A DNA stretch of 64,000 nucleotides from an uncultured Clostridia bacterium (GTDB taxonomy: Bacteria > Bacillota > Clostridia > Lachnospirales > CAG-274): NCBI GenBank assembly GCA_947628755.1, contig CANRBC010000014.1, positions 1 through 64,000 of the forward strand, read 5' to 3'. The notes under the pieces are model-generated. The model worked only from the letters and a program-made list of their open reading frames with translations. It did no database searches and was not told where the DNA came from. The translations under genes and the position numbers were made by a program. Positions 28,439-47,172 of this stretch are shown in pieces (the stretch's first letter is position 1; the number at the start of each line of letters is the position of its first letter).

Positions 28439-28457
28439 TATATTAACAAATAAATAT

Positions 28458-28569
28458 TATTCTTCGGGGATTGGTGAAATTCCATACCGGTGGTAAAGCC
28501 CACGAGCCTTATGGCATGATCCGTTGTAATTACGGAGCCGACAGTAAAGTCTGGATGAAAGAAGAAATA
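28458..28569 (+). ncRNA. FMN riboswitch aptamer (RFN element)
   Basis: All hallmark strings of the RFN element are present in order: GGTGAAATTCC, ACCGGTGGTAAAGCCC, CGAGCC, GGAGCCGACAGTAAAGTC and TGGATGAAAGAAG. P1 forms from TTCTTC (28460-28465) and GAAGAA (28561-28566). It precedes the ribD-ribE-ribBA-ribH operon, so FMN should switch off riboflavin synthesis. The downstream expression platform contains two terminator-like hairpins. Confidence 0.98.
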
Positions 28570-28576
28570 TAAATTC

Positions 28577-36136: not shown

Positions 36137-37309
36137 TCAGTATGCCTTTTTAAACACATCTGTTTTGTCTGTCTTTTCCCATGGTACGTCTATGTCGCTT
36201 CTGCCAAAGTGACCATAAGCCGCAGTCTGCTTATATATAGGTCTTCTCAAATCAAAGTTCTTAATAATAGCGGCAGGTCTCAAATCAAAGTTTTCCTTTA
36301 CAAGCTCAACTATCTTATCATCTGTAATTTTACCTGTACCGTAGGTATTTACCCATATTGAAAGAGGCTTTGCAACGCCTATGGCATAGGCGAGCTGTAT
36401 TTCGCATTTTTTGGCAATACCGCTTGCTACTATATTCTTTGCCACATATCTTGCGGCATAAGCTGCGGAACGGTCTACCTTTGTCGGGTCTTTGCCGCTG
36501 AAGGCTCCGCCGCCGTGACTTGCATAGCCGCCGTAGGTATCTACAATTATTTTTCTGCCCGTAAGTCCGCAGTCGCCCTGTGGACCGCCTATTACGAAAC
36601 GGCCTGTGGGATTTACATAATATTTTGTATTTTCGTCCAGAAGCTCGGCAGGTATCACCGTCTTTATTACCTGCTCTATAATATCCTTTTCTATCTGCTC
36701 ATGCTCTACTTCGGGACTGTGCTGTGTGGATATTACAACATTATCTATCCTTACTGCCTTGTCATCGTCGTATTCCACAGTCACCTGACTTTTTCCGTCG
36801 GGTCTTAAATAAGGAAGAGAGCCGTTCTTTCTGACCTCGCTCAGCTTTTTCGCGAGCTTATGCGCATAATATATGGGCATAGGCATATAGTCCTCTGTCT
36901 CGTCACAGGCAAAGCCGAACATCATTCCCTGGTCTCCCGCTCCCGTATCGTCGGAATCGGCATTGCCCTCTCTTGCTTCGAGAGAGGAATTAACTCCTTG
37001 GGCAATATCGGGACTTTGTCCCTTAAGAGATGTAAGTACCGCGCAGCTGTCGCAGTCAAAGCCGTACTTGGCTCTGTCATAGCCTATTTCCCTTACGGTC
37101 TCTCTGGCAATCTCATCAATGTCTACGTAACAGCTTGTTGTTACCTCTCCCGCTACCATTATAAGGCCTGTTGTCGCCATTGTTTCGCAGGCTACTCTTG
37201 CCATAGGGTCTTTTGCAAGTATGGCGTCAAGCACTGCATCCGAGATTTGGTCGCACATTTTATCCGGATGTCCCTCGGTAACAGATTCTGATGTGAAAAA
37301 TCTTTTCAT
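36137..37309 (-). CDS. metK: S-adenosylmethionine synthase
   Basis: This 390-aa tetrameric enzyme makes SAM from methionine and ATP. It begins [18 protein letters not shown] and contains the P-loop-like [10 protein letters not shown] and [22 protein letters not shown] 37309 follows AGGAGG; an earlier in-frame start at 37342 lacks a site. It is preceded by a SAM-I riboswitch and terminator, so its product feeds back on its own transcription. Confidence 0.98.
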
Positions 37310-37368
37310 CTGAATTCCTCCTGTTTTATTTACCTTTATCATAATATCGTTATTCTTGTAAATGTAAT

Positions 37369-37392: not shown

Positions 37393-37401
37393 ATTCTAAA
37401 G

Positions 37402-37497
37402 CTCATCTATCGGAATAAACCGCAGGAATTGGCACCGATGTCATTACGACCGGTTGTCGGGCTTCATAGGGCCTGTCCCTCCACCTCTCTTGATAAG
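37402..37497 (-). ncRNA. SAM-I riboswitch (S box) upstream of metK
   Basis: Read on the minus strand it begins CTTATCAAGAGAGG, continues GGTGGAGGGAC, then GAAGCCCGACAACC, the GGTGCCAATTCCTGC block, and closes with GATGAG: the full S-box consensus in order. With the following terminator it should stop metK transcription when SAM is abundant. Confidence 0.98.
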
Positions 37498-37520
37498 GCA
37501 ATATTTTGTTTACAAGTAAT

Positions 37521-39114: not shown

Positions 39115-39408
39115 GTCGACCCTTCCGGCAGCCTTATGGCTGCCACCTCCCCTTCTCGTAAGGGGAGGCTGGGGTTGTGGGAAGGGCTGGCTTTTGCCGC
39201 AGGCAAAAGTGCTGAACTTCTCTGAAGGGACGCCTTTCGTATATATACCTCTCGTTTGCTAATTTTGTGAAAAATATTGACTTTTTAACATCATTAAAGC
39301 TTTTGGAGAACGAACAACTAAGCTTCCCCTTCAGAGAAGGGGAAGTGGCAGCCCAACCATTTCTATGAGTTAAAAATACCTTTGCATTGGGCTGCCGATA
39401 GGGTCGAC
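39115..39408. repeat. Palindromic intergenic element 2, MITE-like, 294 bp
   Basis: The ends are near-perfect inverted repeats of 20 bases: GTCGACCCTTCCGGCAGCC on the left and GGCTGCCGATAGGGTCGAC on the right. Inside each end a second hairpin of the form CTCCCCTT-n-AAGGGGAG or CTTCCCCTTC-n-GAAGGGGAAG follows. The architecture matches elements 1 and 3. It lies upstream of the pyrimidine-operon promoter, and I see no gene between 39017 and 39541. Confidence 0.88.
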
Positions 39409-39481: not shown

Positions 39482-39510
39482 TTGACAAAATATAATAATA
39501 ATGTTAAAAT
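39482..39510 (+). promoter_or_regulatory. Promoter of the pyrimidine operon
   Basis: TTGACA (39482-39487), a 17-base spacer and TAAAAT (39505-39510). It lies about 30 bases before the leader ORF, whose ribosome binding site is AAGGAGGGA. Confidence 0.85.
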
Positions 39511-39541
39511 TTCTAGGATATATAAAATAAGGAGGGATAGT

Positions 39542-39643
39542 ATGTTATACATAGGCATATTTAAGAGTATATGGCATAAGTATTTAATTCCCTTACTTGT
39601 TTGTGAACGCAGTTTTGAAAGACAGTTAAAGGTTTTGTTTTAA
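39542..39643 (+). CDS. Leader peptide ORF upstream of pyrB (33 aa)
   Basis: This ORF starts at ATG 39542 behind a near-perfect AAGGAGG and reads MLYIGIFKSIWHKYLIPLLV followed by a mixed tail ending KVLF. It has no recognisable domain. Its stop codon TAA (39641-39643) falls in the loop of an intrinsic terminator, so a ribosome finishing translation would cover the hairpin's left arm. This is the arrangement expected of a translation-coupled attenuator leader. A function in trans cannot be excluded. Confidence 0.65.
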   Translation: MLYIGIFKSIWHKYLIPLLVCERSFERQLKVLF

Positions 39644-39666
39644 TTCCTTTTATTGTCTTTTTTTTT
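39618..39666 (+). terminator. Attenuator terminator before pyrB
   Basis: AAAGACAGTTAAAGG (39618-39632) pairs with CCTTTTATTGTCTTT (39646-39660) with one GU and one mismatch, followed by a T-run to 39666. It lies between the operon promoter and pyrB and overlaps the end of the leader ORF. Confidence 0.75.
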
Positions 39667-39696
39667 GAGTAAATTTTATAGAAATGGAGGAAAGCT

Positions 39697-40623
39697 ATGT
39701 ACAACAGGAAAGACCTGCTGGGATTAAGAGAGCTGAGCGCAGACGAAATAATGACCATTCTTAATACGGCAAGGGAAATGAAGGCGAGAATAGACGACCC
39801 ATCTCTTAGGGATAAAAGTCTTGAAAAAAGCAGCATTGTAACTCTTTTCTATGAAAACAGCACCAGAACCAAAATGTCCTTTATGCTGGCGGGAGAATAT
39901 CAAGGCGCAATAGTAAAGGATTTGGGTGTGGCGACAAGCAGCGTATCCAAAGGCGAAAGCCTTATAGATACAGGAGTAACACTGGATCAGATGGGTACTA
40001 ATATAATGATAATACGTCATCAGCTTACGGGAGCTGCCCATATACTTGCCAAAAATGTAAAGGCAAGCGTTATAAACGCAGGAGACGGCTCTAACGAGCA
40101 TCCTACACAGGCGCTTTTGGACCTCTATACCATATATGAGAAGAAAGGCGGCTTTGAAGGACTTAAGGTAGTAATACTTGGAGATATATCCCACTCAAGA
40201 GTTGCAAGAAGCAACGCCTTTGGTCTTACGAAGCTGGGCGCAAAGGTAACTCTTGCAGGACCGTCCACCCTTGTGAGCAGCTCTATGAAAAGTCTGGGCG
40301 TACAGGTAAGCACGGATATACCCTCGGCTATAAGAGATGCCGACGTTGTAATGGGTCTGAGGATACAGTTTGAAAGACAGAGAAATATGCCCTTCCCTAA
40401 CCTCAGAGAGTATTCAAGCCTTTTCGGTGTAAACAGCAGTATGCTTGAGTATGCCAAAAAGGACGTGCTAGTAATGCACCCCGGTCCTGTAAACAGAGGC
40501 GTTGAGCTGAGTACAGATGTAATAGACGGCAGAAATTCCGTAATAACTATACAGGTAAAGAACGGCGTAGCCGTAAGAATGGCTATACTTAAGCTGCTTA
40601 CGGAGTGCAATTCAAGGATATAG
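39697..40623 (+). CDS. pyrB: Aspartate carbamoyltransferase catalytic subunit
   Basis: This 308-aa enzyme condenses carbamoyl phosphate with aspartate, the first committed pyrimidine step. The carbamoyl-phosphate site STRTKMSF (the usual form is STRTRxSF), the GDGSNEHPTQALLD block, the GDISHSRVARSN block and HPGPVNRGVE are visible. No pyrI regulatory subunit follows. It is the first enzyme gene of pyrB-pyrC-pyrF-carA-carB, behind the attenuator-like leader. Confidence 0.97.
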   Translation: MYNRKDLLGLRELSADEIMTILNTAREMKARIDDPSLRDKSLEKSSIVTLFYENSTRTKMSFMLAGEYQGAIVKDLGVATSSVSKGESLIDTGVTLDQMGTNIMIIRHQLTGAAHILAKNVKASVINAGDGSNEHPTQALLDLYTIYEKKGGFEGLKVVILGDISHSRVARSNAFGLTKLGAKVTLAGPSTLVSSSMKSLGVQVSTDIPSAIRDADVVMGLRIQFERQRNMPFPNLREYSSLFGVNSSMLEYAKKDVLVMHPGPVNRGVELSTDVIDGRNSVITIQVKNGVAVRMAILKLLTECNSRI

Positions 40624-40632
40624 GAGGTTGTT

Positions 40633-41928
40633 ATGAGCAGTATACTTATAAAAAGAGGCAGAGTAATAGACCCCCTCAACAATATCGACTCTGTTATGGA
40701 TATACTTGTGAGGGACGGTAAAATAGCCAAGGCTGAGGAAAATATCGCAGACAGCGCCGACAAGGTAATAGACGCAGAGGGTATGTGGGTAATGCCGGGA
40801 CTTATCGACCTTCATGTGCATTTCAGAGAGCCGGGCTATGAAAATAAGGAAACAATAGCAACAGGCTCAAGAGCGGCGGCTGTGGGCGGATTTACAACGG
40901 TGTGTACTATGCCCAACACAAATCCCGTAATGGACAACGCCGTGCTTATAGAATATACCCTCAGTCCTAAGAGAAACGCAGTTATAAATGTACTTCCCAT
41001 AGGCGCTATCACAAAGGGACAGCTTGGAGAAGAGCTTGCGGACATAGGCACAATGGCAGCGGCAGGCGCCTGCGCCATATCCGAGGACGGAAAATCCGTA
41101 GACGACCCTTCCCTTATGAAAAACGCCATGAGATATGCAGGAATGTTCAAGCTGCCCGTATTTGACCATTGCGAGGAAATAAGACTTGCAAAGGGTTCTA
41201 TGAATGCAGGAGACAGAGCTTCCATACTTGGACTTAAGGGCATAGGCAACGACTCCGAGGAGGTTATGGTGGCAAGAGACATTATACTTGCAGGAGCCAC
41301 AGGCTGTCAGCTCCACCTTTGTCACATGAGTACAAGGGGAAGCGTACAGCTTATAAAGGAAGGCAAGGAAAAGGGCGTAAACCTTACGGCTGAAACAGCG
41401 CCTCATTATTTCACACTATGCGACGAGGATATTACAGACTACGACGCCAACTTTAAAATGAATCCTCCTCTCAGAAGCAAGGAGGACAGAGACGCCATAA
41501 GACAGGCTCTTAAGGACAATATAATAGATGTAATCGCCACTGACCATGCACCTCACCACATAGACGACAAAAACTGTGAGTTTGAAAAGGCGGCAAACGG
41601 CATAACGGGTCTTGAAACCTCCTTTGCCCTCAGCTATTCTGAGCTTGTGGACAAGGGTTGGCTCACACCTACGGAGCTTGTTGAAAAAATGAGCTGCAAT
41701 CCTGCAAGGATATTGCACAGCGACAAAGGAAGTCTTGGTATAGGCGCAGCTGCGGATATAACCATAGCCGATGTAAACTGCGAATATGCAATAGATGTAA
41801 ACAAAATGGTGTCCAAAGCAAAGAATATGCCCTATAACGGCAGAAAGGTAAAGGGAAAAGTCCTTTATACAATATGCGGCGGCAACATAATAGTGGAAAA
41901 CGGCGAGCTTACGGAAAAATACAGATAA
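40633..41928 (+). CDS. pyrC: Dihydroorotase (type I)
   Basis: This 431-aa zinc amidohydrolase closes carbamoyl aspartate to dihydroorotate. It has the metal-site DLHVHFREPG, the MPNTNPVMDN block, later metal-ligand regions around FDHCEE and LHLCHMST, and the ATDHAPHH motif. The length is that of the type I (Firmicutes) enzymes. It starts 9 bases after pyrB. Confidence 0.97.
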   Translation: MSSILIKRGRVIDPLNNIDSVMDILVRDGKIAKAEENIADSADKVIDAEGMWVMPGLIDLHVHFREPGYENKETIATGSRAAAVGGFTTVCTMPNTNPVMDNAVLIEYTLSPKRNAVINVLPIGAITKGQLGEELADIGTMAAAGACAISEDGKSVDDPSLMKNAMRYAGMFKLPVFDHCEEIRLAKGSMNAGDRASILGLKGIGNDSEEVMVARDIILAGATGCQLHLCHMSTRGSVQLIKEGKEKGVNLTAETAPHYFTLCDEDITDYDANFKMNPPLRSKEDRDAIRQALKDNIIDVIATDHAPHHIDDKNCEFEKAANGITGLETSFALSYSELVDKGWLTPTELVEKMSCNPARILHSDKGSLGIGAAADITIADVNCEYAIDVNKMVSKAKNMPYNGRKVKGKVLYTICGGNIIVENGELTEKYR

Positions 41929-41940
41929 GGAGATGAATAT

Positions 41941-42876
41941 ATGATAATAGACAGACTTATAGACAGAATAAAGGAAACGGGAAATCCCACAGTAGTGGGA
42001 CTTGACCCAAGATTAAGCTATATACCTTCATTTATAACCGACAAATACTATGGCAAATACGGACATACGCCAAAGGCTGCCGCAAAGTCTATGTATAAAT
42101 TCAACAAATACATTATAGACGCGGTATACGATATTGTTCCTGCGGTAAAGCCTCAGATAGCCATGTATGAAAGATACGGTATCGAGGGTCTTAAGGCTTA
42201 TGTAAAGACCTGCGAATACGCCAAGCTCAAAGGACTTATAGTAATAGGCGATATAAAGAGAAGCGATATAGCCTCAACAGCCGAAGCCTATTCAGACGGA
42301 CATATAGGCAGAGTGACAATAGTGGATACGGAATATGAGGGATTTCCACAGGACTTTATAACCCTTAATCCCTATCTCGGCTCTGATTCTATAACTCCCT
42401 TCCTTAAGGACTGCGCAGCTTATGAAAAGGGACTTTTCGTACTTGCAAAGACATCAAATCCCAACAGCGGGGAAATACAGGATCTTTTGGTTGACGGAGT
42501 TCCTATTTACGAAAAGGTAGGCTCTCTTATAGAAAAATGGGGCAGCGAGCTTATAGGACAGTACGGCTTCAGCAGCGTAGGCGCCGTTGTAGGCGCTACC
42601 CACCCCGAACAGGCAAAGAGACTGAGAGAGGTAATGCCTCACACCTTCTTCCTTGTACCCGGCTACGGCGCACAAGGCGGAAAGGCAGAGGATTTGGCAG
42701 TATGCTTTAACTCAGAGGGTCTGGGCGCAATAGTAAACTCATCAAGAGGTATTATAGCCGCTCATACCAAGGAGGAATATAAGCACTGCTTCAATGACGA
42801 CAGAAACTTTGCGCAAGCGGCAAGACAGGCGTGCATAGATATGAAAAATGATTTAAGGAGATGTATACAGCCATGA
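41941..42876 (+). CDS. pyrF: Orotidine-5'-phosphate decarboxylase (subfamily 2)
   Basis: This 311-aa enzyme decarboxylates OMP to UMP. The catalytic Lys/Asp array is in VIGDIKRSDIAST, with VGLDPRLSY at the N-terminus and the phosphate-binding end PGYGAQGG. The ~310-aa length is typical of subfamily 2 and longer than Bacillus PyrF. Its stop overlaps the carA start (ATGA). Confidence 0.96.
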   Translation: MIIDRLIDRIKETGNPTVVGLDPRLSYIPSFITDKYYGKYGHTPKAAAKSMYKFNKYIIDAVYDIVPAVKPQIAMYERYGIEGLKAYVKTCEYAKLKGLIVIGDIKRSDIASTAEAYSDGHIGRVTIVDTEYEGFPQDFITLNPYLGSDSITPFLKDCAAYEKGLFVLAKTSNPNSGEIQDLLVDGVPIYEKVGSLIEKWGSELIGQYGFSSVGAVVGATHPEQAKRLREVMPHTFFLVPGYGAQGGKAEDLAVCFNSEGLGAIVNSSRGIIAAHTKEEYKHCFNDDRNFAQAARQACIDMKNDLRRCIQP

Positions 42877-43967
42877 AAAAGACTGTGAAAGCAGAGCTTA
42901 TACTTGAAAACGGTGTGCGCTTCAAGGGAAACGCCTTCGGCTATATTAAAGAGACCGTAGGCGAGGTAGTGTTCACAACAGGTATGACAGGCTATCAGGA
43001 AACTCTTACCGACCCGTCCTTTGCAGGACAGATAGTTACAATGACTTATCCCCTTATAGGCAACTACGGTATCAATCTGGAGGATATGGAGAGCAGAAGA
43101 CCGTTTTTAAAGGGCTTTGTAGTAAGGGAAAAGTGTGATGTTCCCAATAACTGGCGCTGTGAAATGGATATTGACAACTTCCTCTATCAGAACAAAATAA
43201 TGGGTCTTGAAAATATCGATACAAGAGCCTTGACAAGAGTATTAAGGGACAACGGTACTATGAGGGGAATAATCACCACAAGAGTCGGCGACCTTACCCC
43301 CAGTCAGATAAAGCAGAAATTCGACACATATACAAACGCTTATGCCGTTAAGGAAACTACCATAGACGAGCCCTATGTAATAAGCGGAAGAGGCACTCAT
43401 CTGGCTGTGCTGGACTGCGGCATAAAGCAGGGTATATTAAGAGACCTTGCCAAGAGAGGCTGTAAGCTCAGCGTATTTCCCGCATTTACATCTGCCGAGG
43501 ATATACTTGCGGTAAAGCCCGACGCTATTTTCTTAGGCAACGGTCCGGGAGACCCCAAGGATATTCCCGATGTTGTGGAAACCGTGAGACAGCTTATAGA
43601 TACGGGTATGCCCGTTTTAGGTATATGCCTCGGTCATCAGCTTATAAGCCTTGCATTAGGCTGCAACACTACAAGGCTTAAGTTCGGTCACCATGGCGGA
43701 AATCATCCCGTTAAGGATTTAAAGACAGGCAGAGTATATATTACAAGCCAGAATCACGAGTTTGTAGTAAGCGACCTTTCAGATGATGTTGAAGCCACGT
43801 TTATAAATGTAAACGACGGCAGTATAGAGGGTATAAGGCATAAGACAAAGCCTGTTTATTCGGTACAGTTCCATCCCGAGGCAAGTCCCGGACCTCTCGA
43901 TACCCAGGAAATGTTTGACAGATTCATAAAAATGATAGAGGAGGTGAAGTCCCATGCCAAGAGATAA
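42873..43967 (+). CDS. carA: Carbamoyl-phosphate synthase small (glutaminase) subunit
   Basis: This 364-aa subunit releases ammonia from glutamine for CarB. The N-terminal [13 protein letters not shown] and [11 protein letters not shown] are typical, and the class I glutaminase triad is seen in GICLGHQL (Cys) and FHPEAS (His, Glu). ATG 42873 makes a clean ATGA overlap with pyrF; the ATG at 42861 would touch the ribosome binding site. It overlaps carB by 14 bases. Confidence 0.96.
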
Positions 43968-46900
43968 TTCCATTAAAAAGGTACTGGTAATAGGTTCAGG
44001 CCCTATTGTTATCGGACAAGCAGCGGAGTTTGACTATTCCGGCACACAGGCGTGCCAGTCCATAAAGGAAGAGGGTATAGACGTTGTGCTTGTCAACTCA
44101 AATCCCGCCACTATAATGACTGACTTAGGCATGGCACACTACACCTATATAGAACCCCTTACAATAGATTTTCTTGAAAAGGTAATAGAAAAGGAACGCC
44201 CCGACAGCATTATAGCGGGAATGGGCGGTCAGACAGGCCTTAACTTAAGCTGCGAGCTTTACGACAGAGGCATACTGGACAAGTATCATGTAAAGGTCAT
44301 AGGCACATCCATAGAATCCATTAAGGAGGGCGAGGACAGAGACAGCTTCAAACGCCTTATGGAGAGAACAAATCAGCCTATTGTAGAAAGCGACATTGTA
44401 ACAGATGTGGATTCCGCCATAGAGTTTGCCCAGAGCATAGGCTATCCCGTAATAGTGCGTCCCGCTTATACATTAGGCGGTACAGGCGGCGGTATTGCCC
44501 ACGACGAGGCAGAGCTGAGAGAAATATGCACACAGGGACTTCACCTTTCAAGAGTAGGTCAGGTGCTTATAGAAAAAAGTATAGCAGGCTGGAAGGAAAT
44601 AGAGTTTGAGGTAATGAGAGACGGCGCAGGCAACTGTATAACAGTCTGCAGCATGGAAAATGTTGACCCTGTTGGCGTACATACAGGCGACAGTATAGTT
44701 GTTGCTCCTGCTCAGACACTTTCAGACAGAGAATATCAGATGCTGAGAAGCGCCGCTATAAATATTATTAATTCCATAGAGATAAAGGGCGGCTGTAATG
44801 TACAGTTTGCTCTTGACCCCAACAGTTATAATTACGCCGTTATAGAAATAAATCCCAGAGTGAGCCGTTCGTCTGCCCTTGCTTCCAAGGCGACAGGCTA
44901 TCCTATTGCCAAGGTTGGCGCAAAAATAGCTCTCGGCTATAATCTGGACGAAATAAAGAACGCCGTTACAGGCAAGACATTTGCCTGCTTCGAGCCTACC
45001 ATAGACTATGTCGTGCTTAAATTCCCCAGATGGCCTTTCGACAAGTTCTTCGGCGCTAAGAGAACACTTGGCACAAAGATGATGGCAACAGGCGAGATAA
45101 TGTCCATAGGAAAGAGCTTTGAAGCAGCTCTTTTAAAGGGCGTGCGTTCTCTTGAAATAGGTCAGTACGGGCTTGAGAGAAAGTCCTCATCAGCAAGAGA
45201 CCTTGAAACGCTTAAAAAGAGAGTAGTAACTCCCGATGACGAAAGACTTTTCGATATGGCTGAAATGATAAGACGAGGCTATAAGGTAGAAAAGATATGT
45301 CAAATCACGGGTATGGACCTTTTCTTTGTTCACAAGATAGCTAACCTTGTGGAAATGGAGGAGGAATTAAAGACAATGAGCCTTGATGACTTTACTGAGG
45401 AAAACCTTACCTATTTCAAGGAAAAGGGATTTTCCGACAAGGCAATAAGCCGCTTTGTAGGCTGTACTCCTCCCGACATATATGCTCTCAGAAAGAAATG
45501 GAATATAATGCCTGTATTTAAAATGGTAGATACCTGCGCAGGCGAGTTCGAGGCAGTAACGCCCTACTACTATTCCAGCTACGACAGCGAAAACGAGGTA
45601 GTTGTAAGCAACAAAAAGAAGGTTATGGTAATTGGCTCAGGTCCTATAAGAATAGGTCAGGGCATAGAATTTGACTATTGCTCAGTTCACTGTATAATGG
45701 CTCTTAAGAAGGCAGGCATTGAAACCATAATAGTAAACAACAATCCCGAAACGGTATCCACAGACTTTGATACGGCGGACAAGCTGTACTTCGAGCCTCT
45801 TACAGAGGAGGATGTTCTCAATGTTGTAGAGCTTGAAAAGCCCGACGGTGTTATACTCCAGTTCGGCGGACAAACTGCCATAAAGCTGGCAAACTTCTTC
45901 GACGAAATGCACATACCTATATTGGGTACTCTTCCCGAACAGATAGACGAGGCAGAGGACAGAGAGAAATTCGACGCCGTACTTGAAACACTTGGTATTT
46001 CAAGACCCAAGGGCAAGGGCGTATGGTCTGTGGCAGAGGGTATAGAAACAGCGGAAAAGCTGGGCTTCCCCGTGCTTGTAAGACCAAGCTATGTATTGGG
46101 CGGTCAAGGTATGGAAATCACATACAACGACGACCAGCTTAAAATGTACCTTTCAGATGCCTTTGAAAAGGACAGCAAGAATCCTGTGCTTATAGACAGA
46201 TACCTTTGCGGCAGGGAAATAGAGGTAGACGCTATATGCGATGGTACAGATGTGTATATCCCGGGTATAATGGAGCATCTGGAAAGAGCAGGCGTTCATT
46301 CCGGCGACAGTATATCAATATATCCGCCTCAGAACATTTCTGATGATATGAAGCGCCAGATAATGGATGTCACAAAGAAAATATCCGTTGCCCTTAAGGT
46401 CATAGGTATGATAAATATTCAGTTTATAGACTTCAAGGGTGAGCTGAACATAATAGAGGTAAATCCTCGTTCCTCCAGAACTGTGCCTTATATCACGAAG
46501 GTAACGGGAGTTCCCGTTATAGATATAGCTACAAGAGTAATGCTTGGCGAAAAGCTCGCAGACATGGGCTACGGCACGGGTATATGCGACGAGCCAAATG
46601 TAGTTGCTGTTAAAGTGCCTGTATTCTCTACGGAGAAGCTGCCCCAGGTGGAGGTCAGCTTAGGACCGGAAATGAGGTCTACCGGCGAGGTACTTGGCGT
46701 AGGCTATAATCTTGAAAATGCCTTGTACAAGGGCTTTATTGCCGCAGGTATGACTGTACCCAAGGCAGGCAGCACCATTATTGCAACTGTCGGCAGCAAG
46801 GACCACGAAGCCTTTGTGGAGATCGCCAAGAGATGCAAGGGGCTTGGCTGCAACTTCATAGCTACCAAGGGCACGGCAAGAGCCCTTAAGGAAGCGGGCA

Positions 46901-47172
46901 TAGACTGTAAGCTGGTCAAGAAAATAAGCGAAGGCGTGCCTAACATTATAGACACCATAAGAAGCGGCGTTGTAGACCTTATTGTGGATATTCCCAAAAA
47001 GGCAAACAATAAAAAGAGCGACGGCTTCAAAATAAGAAGAACAGCAGTAGAAAGCTCCGTAACTCTTATAACCGCTATGGATACATTCGACGCTATGGTC
47101 AATGTTATGGAAAAGCACATTGACGAAAGTAAGCTGGATATATTCGATATAAACAGAGATATGAGGAAATAA
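43954..47172 (+). CDS. carB: Carbamoyl-phosphate synthase large subunit
   Basis: This 1072-aa synthetase makes carbamoyl phosphate from bicarbonate, ammonia and two ATP. The two homologous ATP-grasp halves are visible: [19 protein letters not shown] at the start and [18 protein letters not shown] near residue 555, each with an NxNPRxSRSSAL- or [11 protein letters not shown]-type motif. A C-terminal MGS-like allosteric domain follows (about 930-1072). Full length. It is the last gene of the operon and is followed by a strong hairpin. Confidence 0.98.

Follow-up and report, generated by a model that had tools for sequence, protein, structure and literature searches.

The pyrBCF-carAB operon described here is preceded by a short leader, with a promoter, a small ORF and an intrinsic terminator. 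The window, meaning the whole stretch of DNA that was analysed (64,000 nucleotides), lies in contig C14 of a 2.5 Mb draft genome (98% complete, 51 contigs). Its pyrB is closest to that of MAGs named uncultured Clostridia. Candidatus Gallispira, listed by NCBI as Clostridia incertae sedis, matches at 90%. The features of the locus are as follows.

39482 to 39510, + strand: promoter TTGACA-17-TAAAAT, with 11 of 12 consensus matches and TG before the -10 element
39525 to 39537, + strand: Shine-Dalgarno (SD) side of a predicted SD:anti-SD helix (fold prediction)
39530 to 39536, + strand: leader-ORF SD, AGGAGGG (sequence reading and duplex energy)
39542 to 39643, + strand: leader ORF, 33 codons and TAA, peptide MLYIGIFKSIWHKYLIPLLVCERSFERQLKVLF; frame kept in relatives
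39581 to 39616, + strand: U-rich tract before the stem; contains TTGTTT (39597 to 39602)
39589 to 39602, + strand: putative anti-SD strand inside the U-rich tract (fold and pairing tests)
39618 to 39666, + strand: intrinsic terminator, stem-loop 39618 to 39660 and nine T at 39658 to 39666; conserved in relatives
39697 to 40623, + strand: pyrB, aspartate carbamoyltransferase catalytic subunit (NCBIfam), with its own SD
40633 to 41928, + strand: pyrC, dihydroorotase (NCBIfam)
41941 to 42876, + strand: pyrF, orotidine-5'-phosphate decarboxylase (NCBIfam)
42861 to 43967, + strand: carA, carbamoyl phosphate synthase small subunit (NCBIfam)
43954 to 47172, + strand: carB, carbamoyl phosphate synthase large subunit (NCBIfam)

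A leader ORF ends within the terminator

The original prediction described a consensus promoter, a 33-codon ORF with a strong ribosome binding site, and a stop codon in the loop of a terminator before pyrB. All three are present in the sequence, the promoter being near-consensus, and the predicted fold agrees on the position of the stop codon. Similarly, NCBIfam confirms all five genes of the operon that had been named. The ORF starts with ATG at 39542-39544 and its TAA, at 39641-39643, is inside the terminator loop. Leader transcription would begin near 39516-39518. The duplex between the leader SD and the anti-SD of 16S rRNA has an energy of about -12 kcal/mol. Note that, for the window leader alone, the chance of an ORF staying open up to the hairpin is about 0.14. 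The significance of the open frame comes from relatives and not from this single leader.

The 61-nucleotide terminator stretch has a predicted folding energy of -16.3 kcal/mol, with a z of -5.6, and no shuffled version was equally good. In the predicted fold of the window's leader, no other strand competes for pairing with the terminator stem. A simple terminator scan does not report this hairpin, because the loop limit is 8 and the actual loop is about 13 nucleotides.

Elsewhere in the operon, reading frames overlap by 16 nucleotides at pyrF/carA (42861-42876) and by 14 at carA/carB (43954-43967), which suggests translational coupling. No comparable attenuator was seen before pyrE or pyrKD of this genome. 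A palindromic GC-rich element, CTTCCCCTTCAGAGAAGGGGAAG, is found at 39323-39345, upstream of the pyrB promoter. The genome has a similar element, CCTCCCCTTCTATGAAGGGGAGG, ahead of pyrKD (locus L165, about 500 nucleotides after the reverse-strand start, upstream of pyrK); these are perhaps a dispersed repeat family. The window also has an FMN riboswitch (28456-28570, + strand) and a SAM riboswitch (37400-37499, - strand), the latter upstream of a metK-like gene (36137-37342).

The ORF and hairpin are conserved together

We examined 48 genomes of the window's family. A pyrB of this type is present in 46 and, in 43 of these, the full leader was recognised before the gene by eye or script, with its promoter and SD, a short ORF, the tract and a terminator. 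In the same 43, the ORF is led by an SD and runs into the terminator or ends just before it. Among the remainder, L154 has Ns across the ORF start, and L009 and L011, both of genus g11, have no recognisable leader before pyrB. A stem-like remnant, AAGACAGCGGAAGGAGAG, sits about 450 nucleotides upstream of pyrB in L011, perhaps owing to an insertion between leader and gene. Hence, ORF and hairpin are conserved together across the family, as expected from the original prediction. Promoters of a similar kind, with TTGACA, also precede the leaders of relatives. In genus g9, 6S RNA genes lie around half a kilobase from pyrB (769-958 in L005, 881-1070 in L100 and 867-1056 in L006; minus strand, locus coordinates).

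Statistics were calculated for a separate set of 43 leaders: 39 from the family and four from relatives, including Candidatus Neoanaerotignum. Near-duplicates were left out of the 39, as were two leaders with hairpins that the script missed. Start sites were chosen by SD strength alone, except in L156, where the start was set by hand. The terminators fold much better than shuffled sequences (mean z -5.4). The ORF frame is free of stops over 886 codons, while the two other frames contain 58 and 60; the count runs to 22 nucleotides before the stem, a limit chosen after seeing three ORFs that end 9-21 nucleotides before it. The stop codon falls between -21 and +23 nucleotides from the stem base in 42 of the 43. 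Within a group, a frame would stay open by chance with a probability of 0.07-0.45; multiplied across 12 groups, this comes to about 1e-8. Note that, since the species are related, these counts are not independent.

While frame and position are conserved, the leader peptides vary between genera. Pairwise substitutions in genus g1 number 60, 39 and 78 at the three codon positions, consistent with, at most, weak constraint on the peptide. In-frame length differences within genera were tried as proof of frame conservation and set aside; the distribution by remainder modulo 3 (27/28/14) is uninformative, as anchors and stops shift. Phenylalanine is enriched in the peptides (22%). An amino acid attenuator of the trp or his type was rejected, given the variable peptides and a terminator stem lacking a competing partner.

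PyrR is absent from the family

Firmicutes pyr operons classically use PyrR. We searched for the gene with NCBIfam model NF003549; B. subtilis and other controls gave matches, and none of the 48 genomes of the family did. The phosphoribosyltransferases of the genome itself are Hpt, Upp, PyrE and Xpt (NCBIfam), with PRPP synthetase, PurF and ComFC recognised by inspection. The Rfam PyrR site (RF00515) was not detected in the window at the gathering threshold, and a scan of 20 family loci at E<=1 was equally negative. Likewise, no riboswitch or other Rfam element was found in the leader of the window or in the leaders of the family loci. Thus, the earlier failure to see a PyrR-binding consensus is upheld by Rfam, and the suggested search for pyrR elsewhere in the genome gave a negative result for this genome and its family. 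Since gene and site were both tested, and both are absent, we conclude that the leader is not a PyrR attenuator.

The position in the operon is nonetheless shared with PyrR-dependent attenuators, and PyrR-bearing relatives have a similar terminator (for example, GGCAATGAAAAG..CTTTTTATTGCC). NF003549 is present in six genomes from other families of the same order. We read the leaders of five (L135-L138 and L140) and, in each, a hairpin resembling a PyrR site (CAGAGAGGCC or similar) overlaps the SD of a leader ORF, and this ORF likewise runs into the terminator. Two such leaders, L136 and L023, score with RF00515, under its gathering threshold. The ORFs of L135, L136, L138 and L140 start M-x-x-I-x-A (MRDIGA, MRSISA, MGSIRA) directly past the PyrR-like site, towards the terminator. 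Among six Cellulosilyticum-type leaders, only some have an ORF. PyrR was not found in the four Neoanaerotignum-like genomes. In more distant clostridial pyrB loci (L025-L082), the scan used gave no PyrR motif and, in most of them, no terminator, so that they offered no comparable leader.

The proposal for the pyr leader of Thermus ZO5 is, reportedly, that a translating ribosome prevents terminator formation, with no antiterminator, and that PyrR controls translation of the leader. The leaders of L135-L138 and L140 look closer to this proposal, and those of L135, L136, L138 and L140 possibly have PyrR-gated translation of the Thermus type. The same arrangement was ruled out for the window, since PyrR is absent from its family. 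Given the PyrR-like sites on the SDs of comparable ORFs in PyrR-bearing relatives, and the lack of PyrR throughout the window's family, a PyrR-gated leader ORF is probably ancestral, and the family has probably lost PyrR and kept the ORF.

A U-rich tract precedes the terminator

The 45 nucleotides before the stem have a mean T content of 56%, compared to a locus background of 29% and 42% in PyrR-lineage leaders. T content reaches at least the 95th percentile of the respective locus in 38 of the 43 leaders. The window's own leader, at 42% (97th percentile of its locus), belongs to the genus with the weakest tract in the family (42-56% T). Its U-rich tract is a possible pause region. T is the final base of 85% of the two-fold codons within the tract, compared to 57% in pyrB. 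Hence, the bias acts at the level of RNA.

The TTNTTT motif of the window's leader sits 21 nucleotides before the stem. The NusG of this genome contains an RNT segment, which we take to be at residues 81-82, matching N81/T82 of B. subtilis NusG. Those B. subtilis residues are reported to read a T-rich pause motif (PMC12288461). Enrichment of TTNTTT was considered as proof of NusG pausing and found unconvincing (128 motifs, compared to 109 +/- 11 in shuffled leaders).

Logically, such leaders would react to any shift in the race between polymerase and ribosome, and the role of UTP is one that we infer. They could therefore act as sensors of coupling in general, or as a basal brake, responding to translation capacity or growth state rather than UTP. 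We regard this as improbable, however, given the strong U bias at the RNA level, the location before a pyrimidine operon and the apparent replacement of PyrR.

The tract is predicted to pair with the leader SD

The original prediction saw no second hairpin. This needs correction; the leader SD is predicted to pair with the tract in a helix of 13 pairs with one bulge (39525-39537 with 39589-39602). We compared SD:tract pairing with that of shuffled tracts, giving a genus mean z of -1.87 (t-test, p 1e-5). In a swap test, from which one control segment was dropped because its energies were meaningless, each SD paired at -13.3 kcal/mol with its own tract and at -11.1 +/- 0.4 kcal/mol with those of other genera (p<5e-5). 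The difference disappeared if tracts were shuffled, or if segments from the pyrB start replaced the SD. Genera g2, g7 and g10 show weak pairing and, of eight PyrR-lineage leaders tested, only L023 has it strongly.

Such a helix could be a by-product, arising because the SD is rich in purines and the tract opposite it in pyrimidines. The leader would then be a plain ribosome/polymerase race of the pyrBI type, for which ORF, U-rich tract and terminator are enough in the published E. coli model (PMC5021804). Consistent with this, predicted SD-tract pairing, 0.82 in the family, is already 0.64 with shuffled tracts. However, the pairing is genus-specific and, on average, stronger than with dinucleotide-shuffled tracts in all 12 groups. 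We consider the by-product explanation rather unlikely.

The leader without its terminator folds somewhat better than chance (mean z -1.96). A protein or ligand might bind, for instance at the SD:tract helix, with the ORF being incidental. The PyrR lineages make protein control of such leaders plausible. Against this, only SD, tract and terminator are conserved, the stretch between SD and tract differs among genera and Rfam gives no match; an incidental ORF would also not stay free of stops over so many codons. We view this explanation as very improbable.

A model for UTP-responsive attenuation

Taken together, sequence comparisons support a frame that runs into the terminator, a U-rich tract, an SD:tract helix and loss of PyrR. 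The pyrBI-like reading first put forward is thus strengthened comparatively, by joint conservation of ORF and hairpin and by absence of both the PyrR gene and an Rfam PyrR site. We think it probable, on balance, that the leader is a PyrR-independent, translation-coupled and UTP-responsive attenuator of a pyrBI-like kind, with an added lock on the SD.

We infer UTP as the signal, polymerase pausing in the tract and the order of events, which would be as follows. If UTP is ample, polymerase would cross the U-rich tract ahead of ribosomes. Once emerged, the tract would pair with the leader SD and keep ribosomes from loading; the terminator would form, leaving the operon off. If UTP is scarce, polymerase would dwell in the tract, perhaps aided by NusG at TTNTTT. 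A ribosome could then load before the lock strand emerges, translate into the stem and block the hairpin, turning the operon on. Polymerase running ahead would be the default off state, and polymerase slowing the on switch. A more specific form of this model is a kinetic gate on ribosome access, which would be an NTP-sensing switch of a new kind. Here, the tract would both set polymerase speed and carry the anti-SD, the UTP level would determine if ribosome loading precedes closing of the lock, and the arrangement would have arisen after PyrR loss from leaders with PyrR over the same SD. We offer this version tentatively, as a reasonable possibility.

The main doubt concerning the mechanism comes from B. 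subtilis, where transcription reportedly runs ahead of translation (PMC7858274). In addition, three terminators after genes in the window are 4-12 nucleotides past the stop codon. Hence, an ORF that reaches the terminator need not block termination in such bacteria. Further points against the model are the weak tract in the window's genus, a TTNTTT frequency barely above that of shuffled leaders, the two family members lacking a leader, and the weak SD:tract pairing in three genera. In E. coli, there is close coupling across pyrL, and the following ribosome prevents terminator formation (PMC5021804).

As in E. coli pyrBI (pyrLBI), a short ORF with a strong SD lies near the promoter, a pyrimidine-rich tract is within the ORF, the ORF overlaps a terminator before pyrB and no PyrR-type regulator is needed. 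The likeness assessed is one of anatomy (an SD-led ORF overlapping the terminator, with a U-rich tract just upstream that is weaker in the window's genus), and the leader probably functions as the enterobacterial attenuator does. We used MG1655 pyrL as the yardstick, and there are differences. Unlike the window ORF, pyrL reads through the terminator, with its stop 42 nucleotides past the stem base. Unlike the family, it has 31% T in the 45 nucleotides before the stem and SD:tract pairing no better than shuffled sequences (z -0.1). We saw no sequence similarity between the clostridial leader and pyrL. Since PyrR-bearing relatives have similar leaders, convergence with the enterobacterial leader is more likely; the clostridial form apparently derives from the PyrR-gated leaders of relatives, not the enterobacterial system. 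The leader also differs from tlrB of B. subtilis, where the signal is antibiotic-stalled ribosomes (PMC12288461), whereas UTP supply is proposed here.

What looks new is the lock on the SD and the way leaders grade from PyrR-gated to PyrR-free; none of the open-access papers searched treats pyrBI, PyrR, Firmicutes and leader together. Coupled attenuation is usually tied to bacteria with ribosomes close behind polymerase. If our model is true, a race between polymerase and ribosome can serve as a sensor in Clostridia, with off as the default state. Predictions for start codon, tract and lock mutants are directly testable in a laboratory Firmicute. Furthermore, these leaders would make readable how the control of a single operon evolved, step by step, from protein-gated to protein-free.
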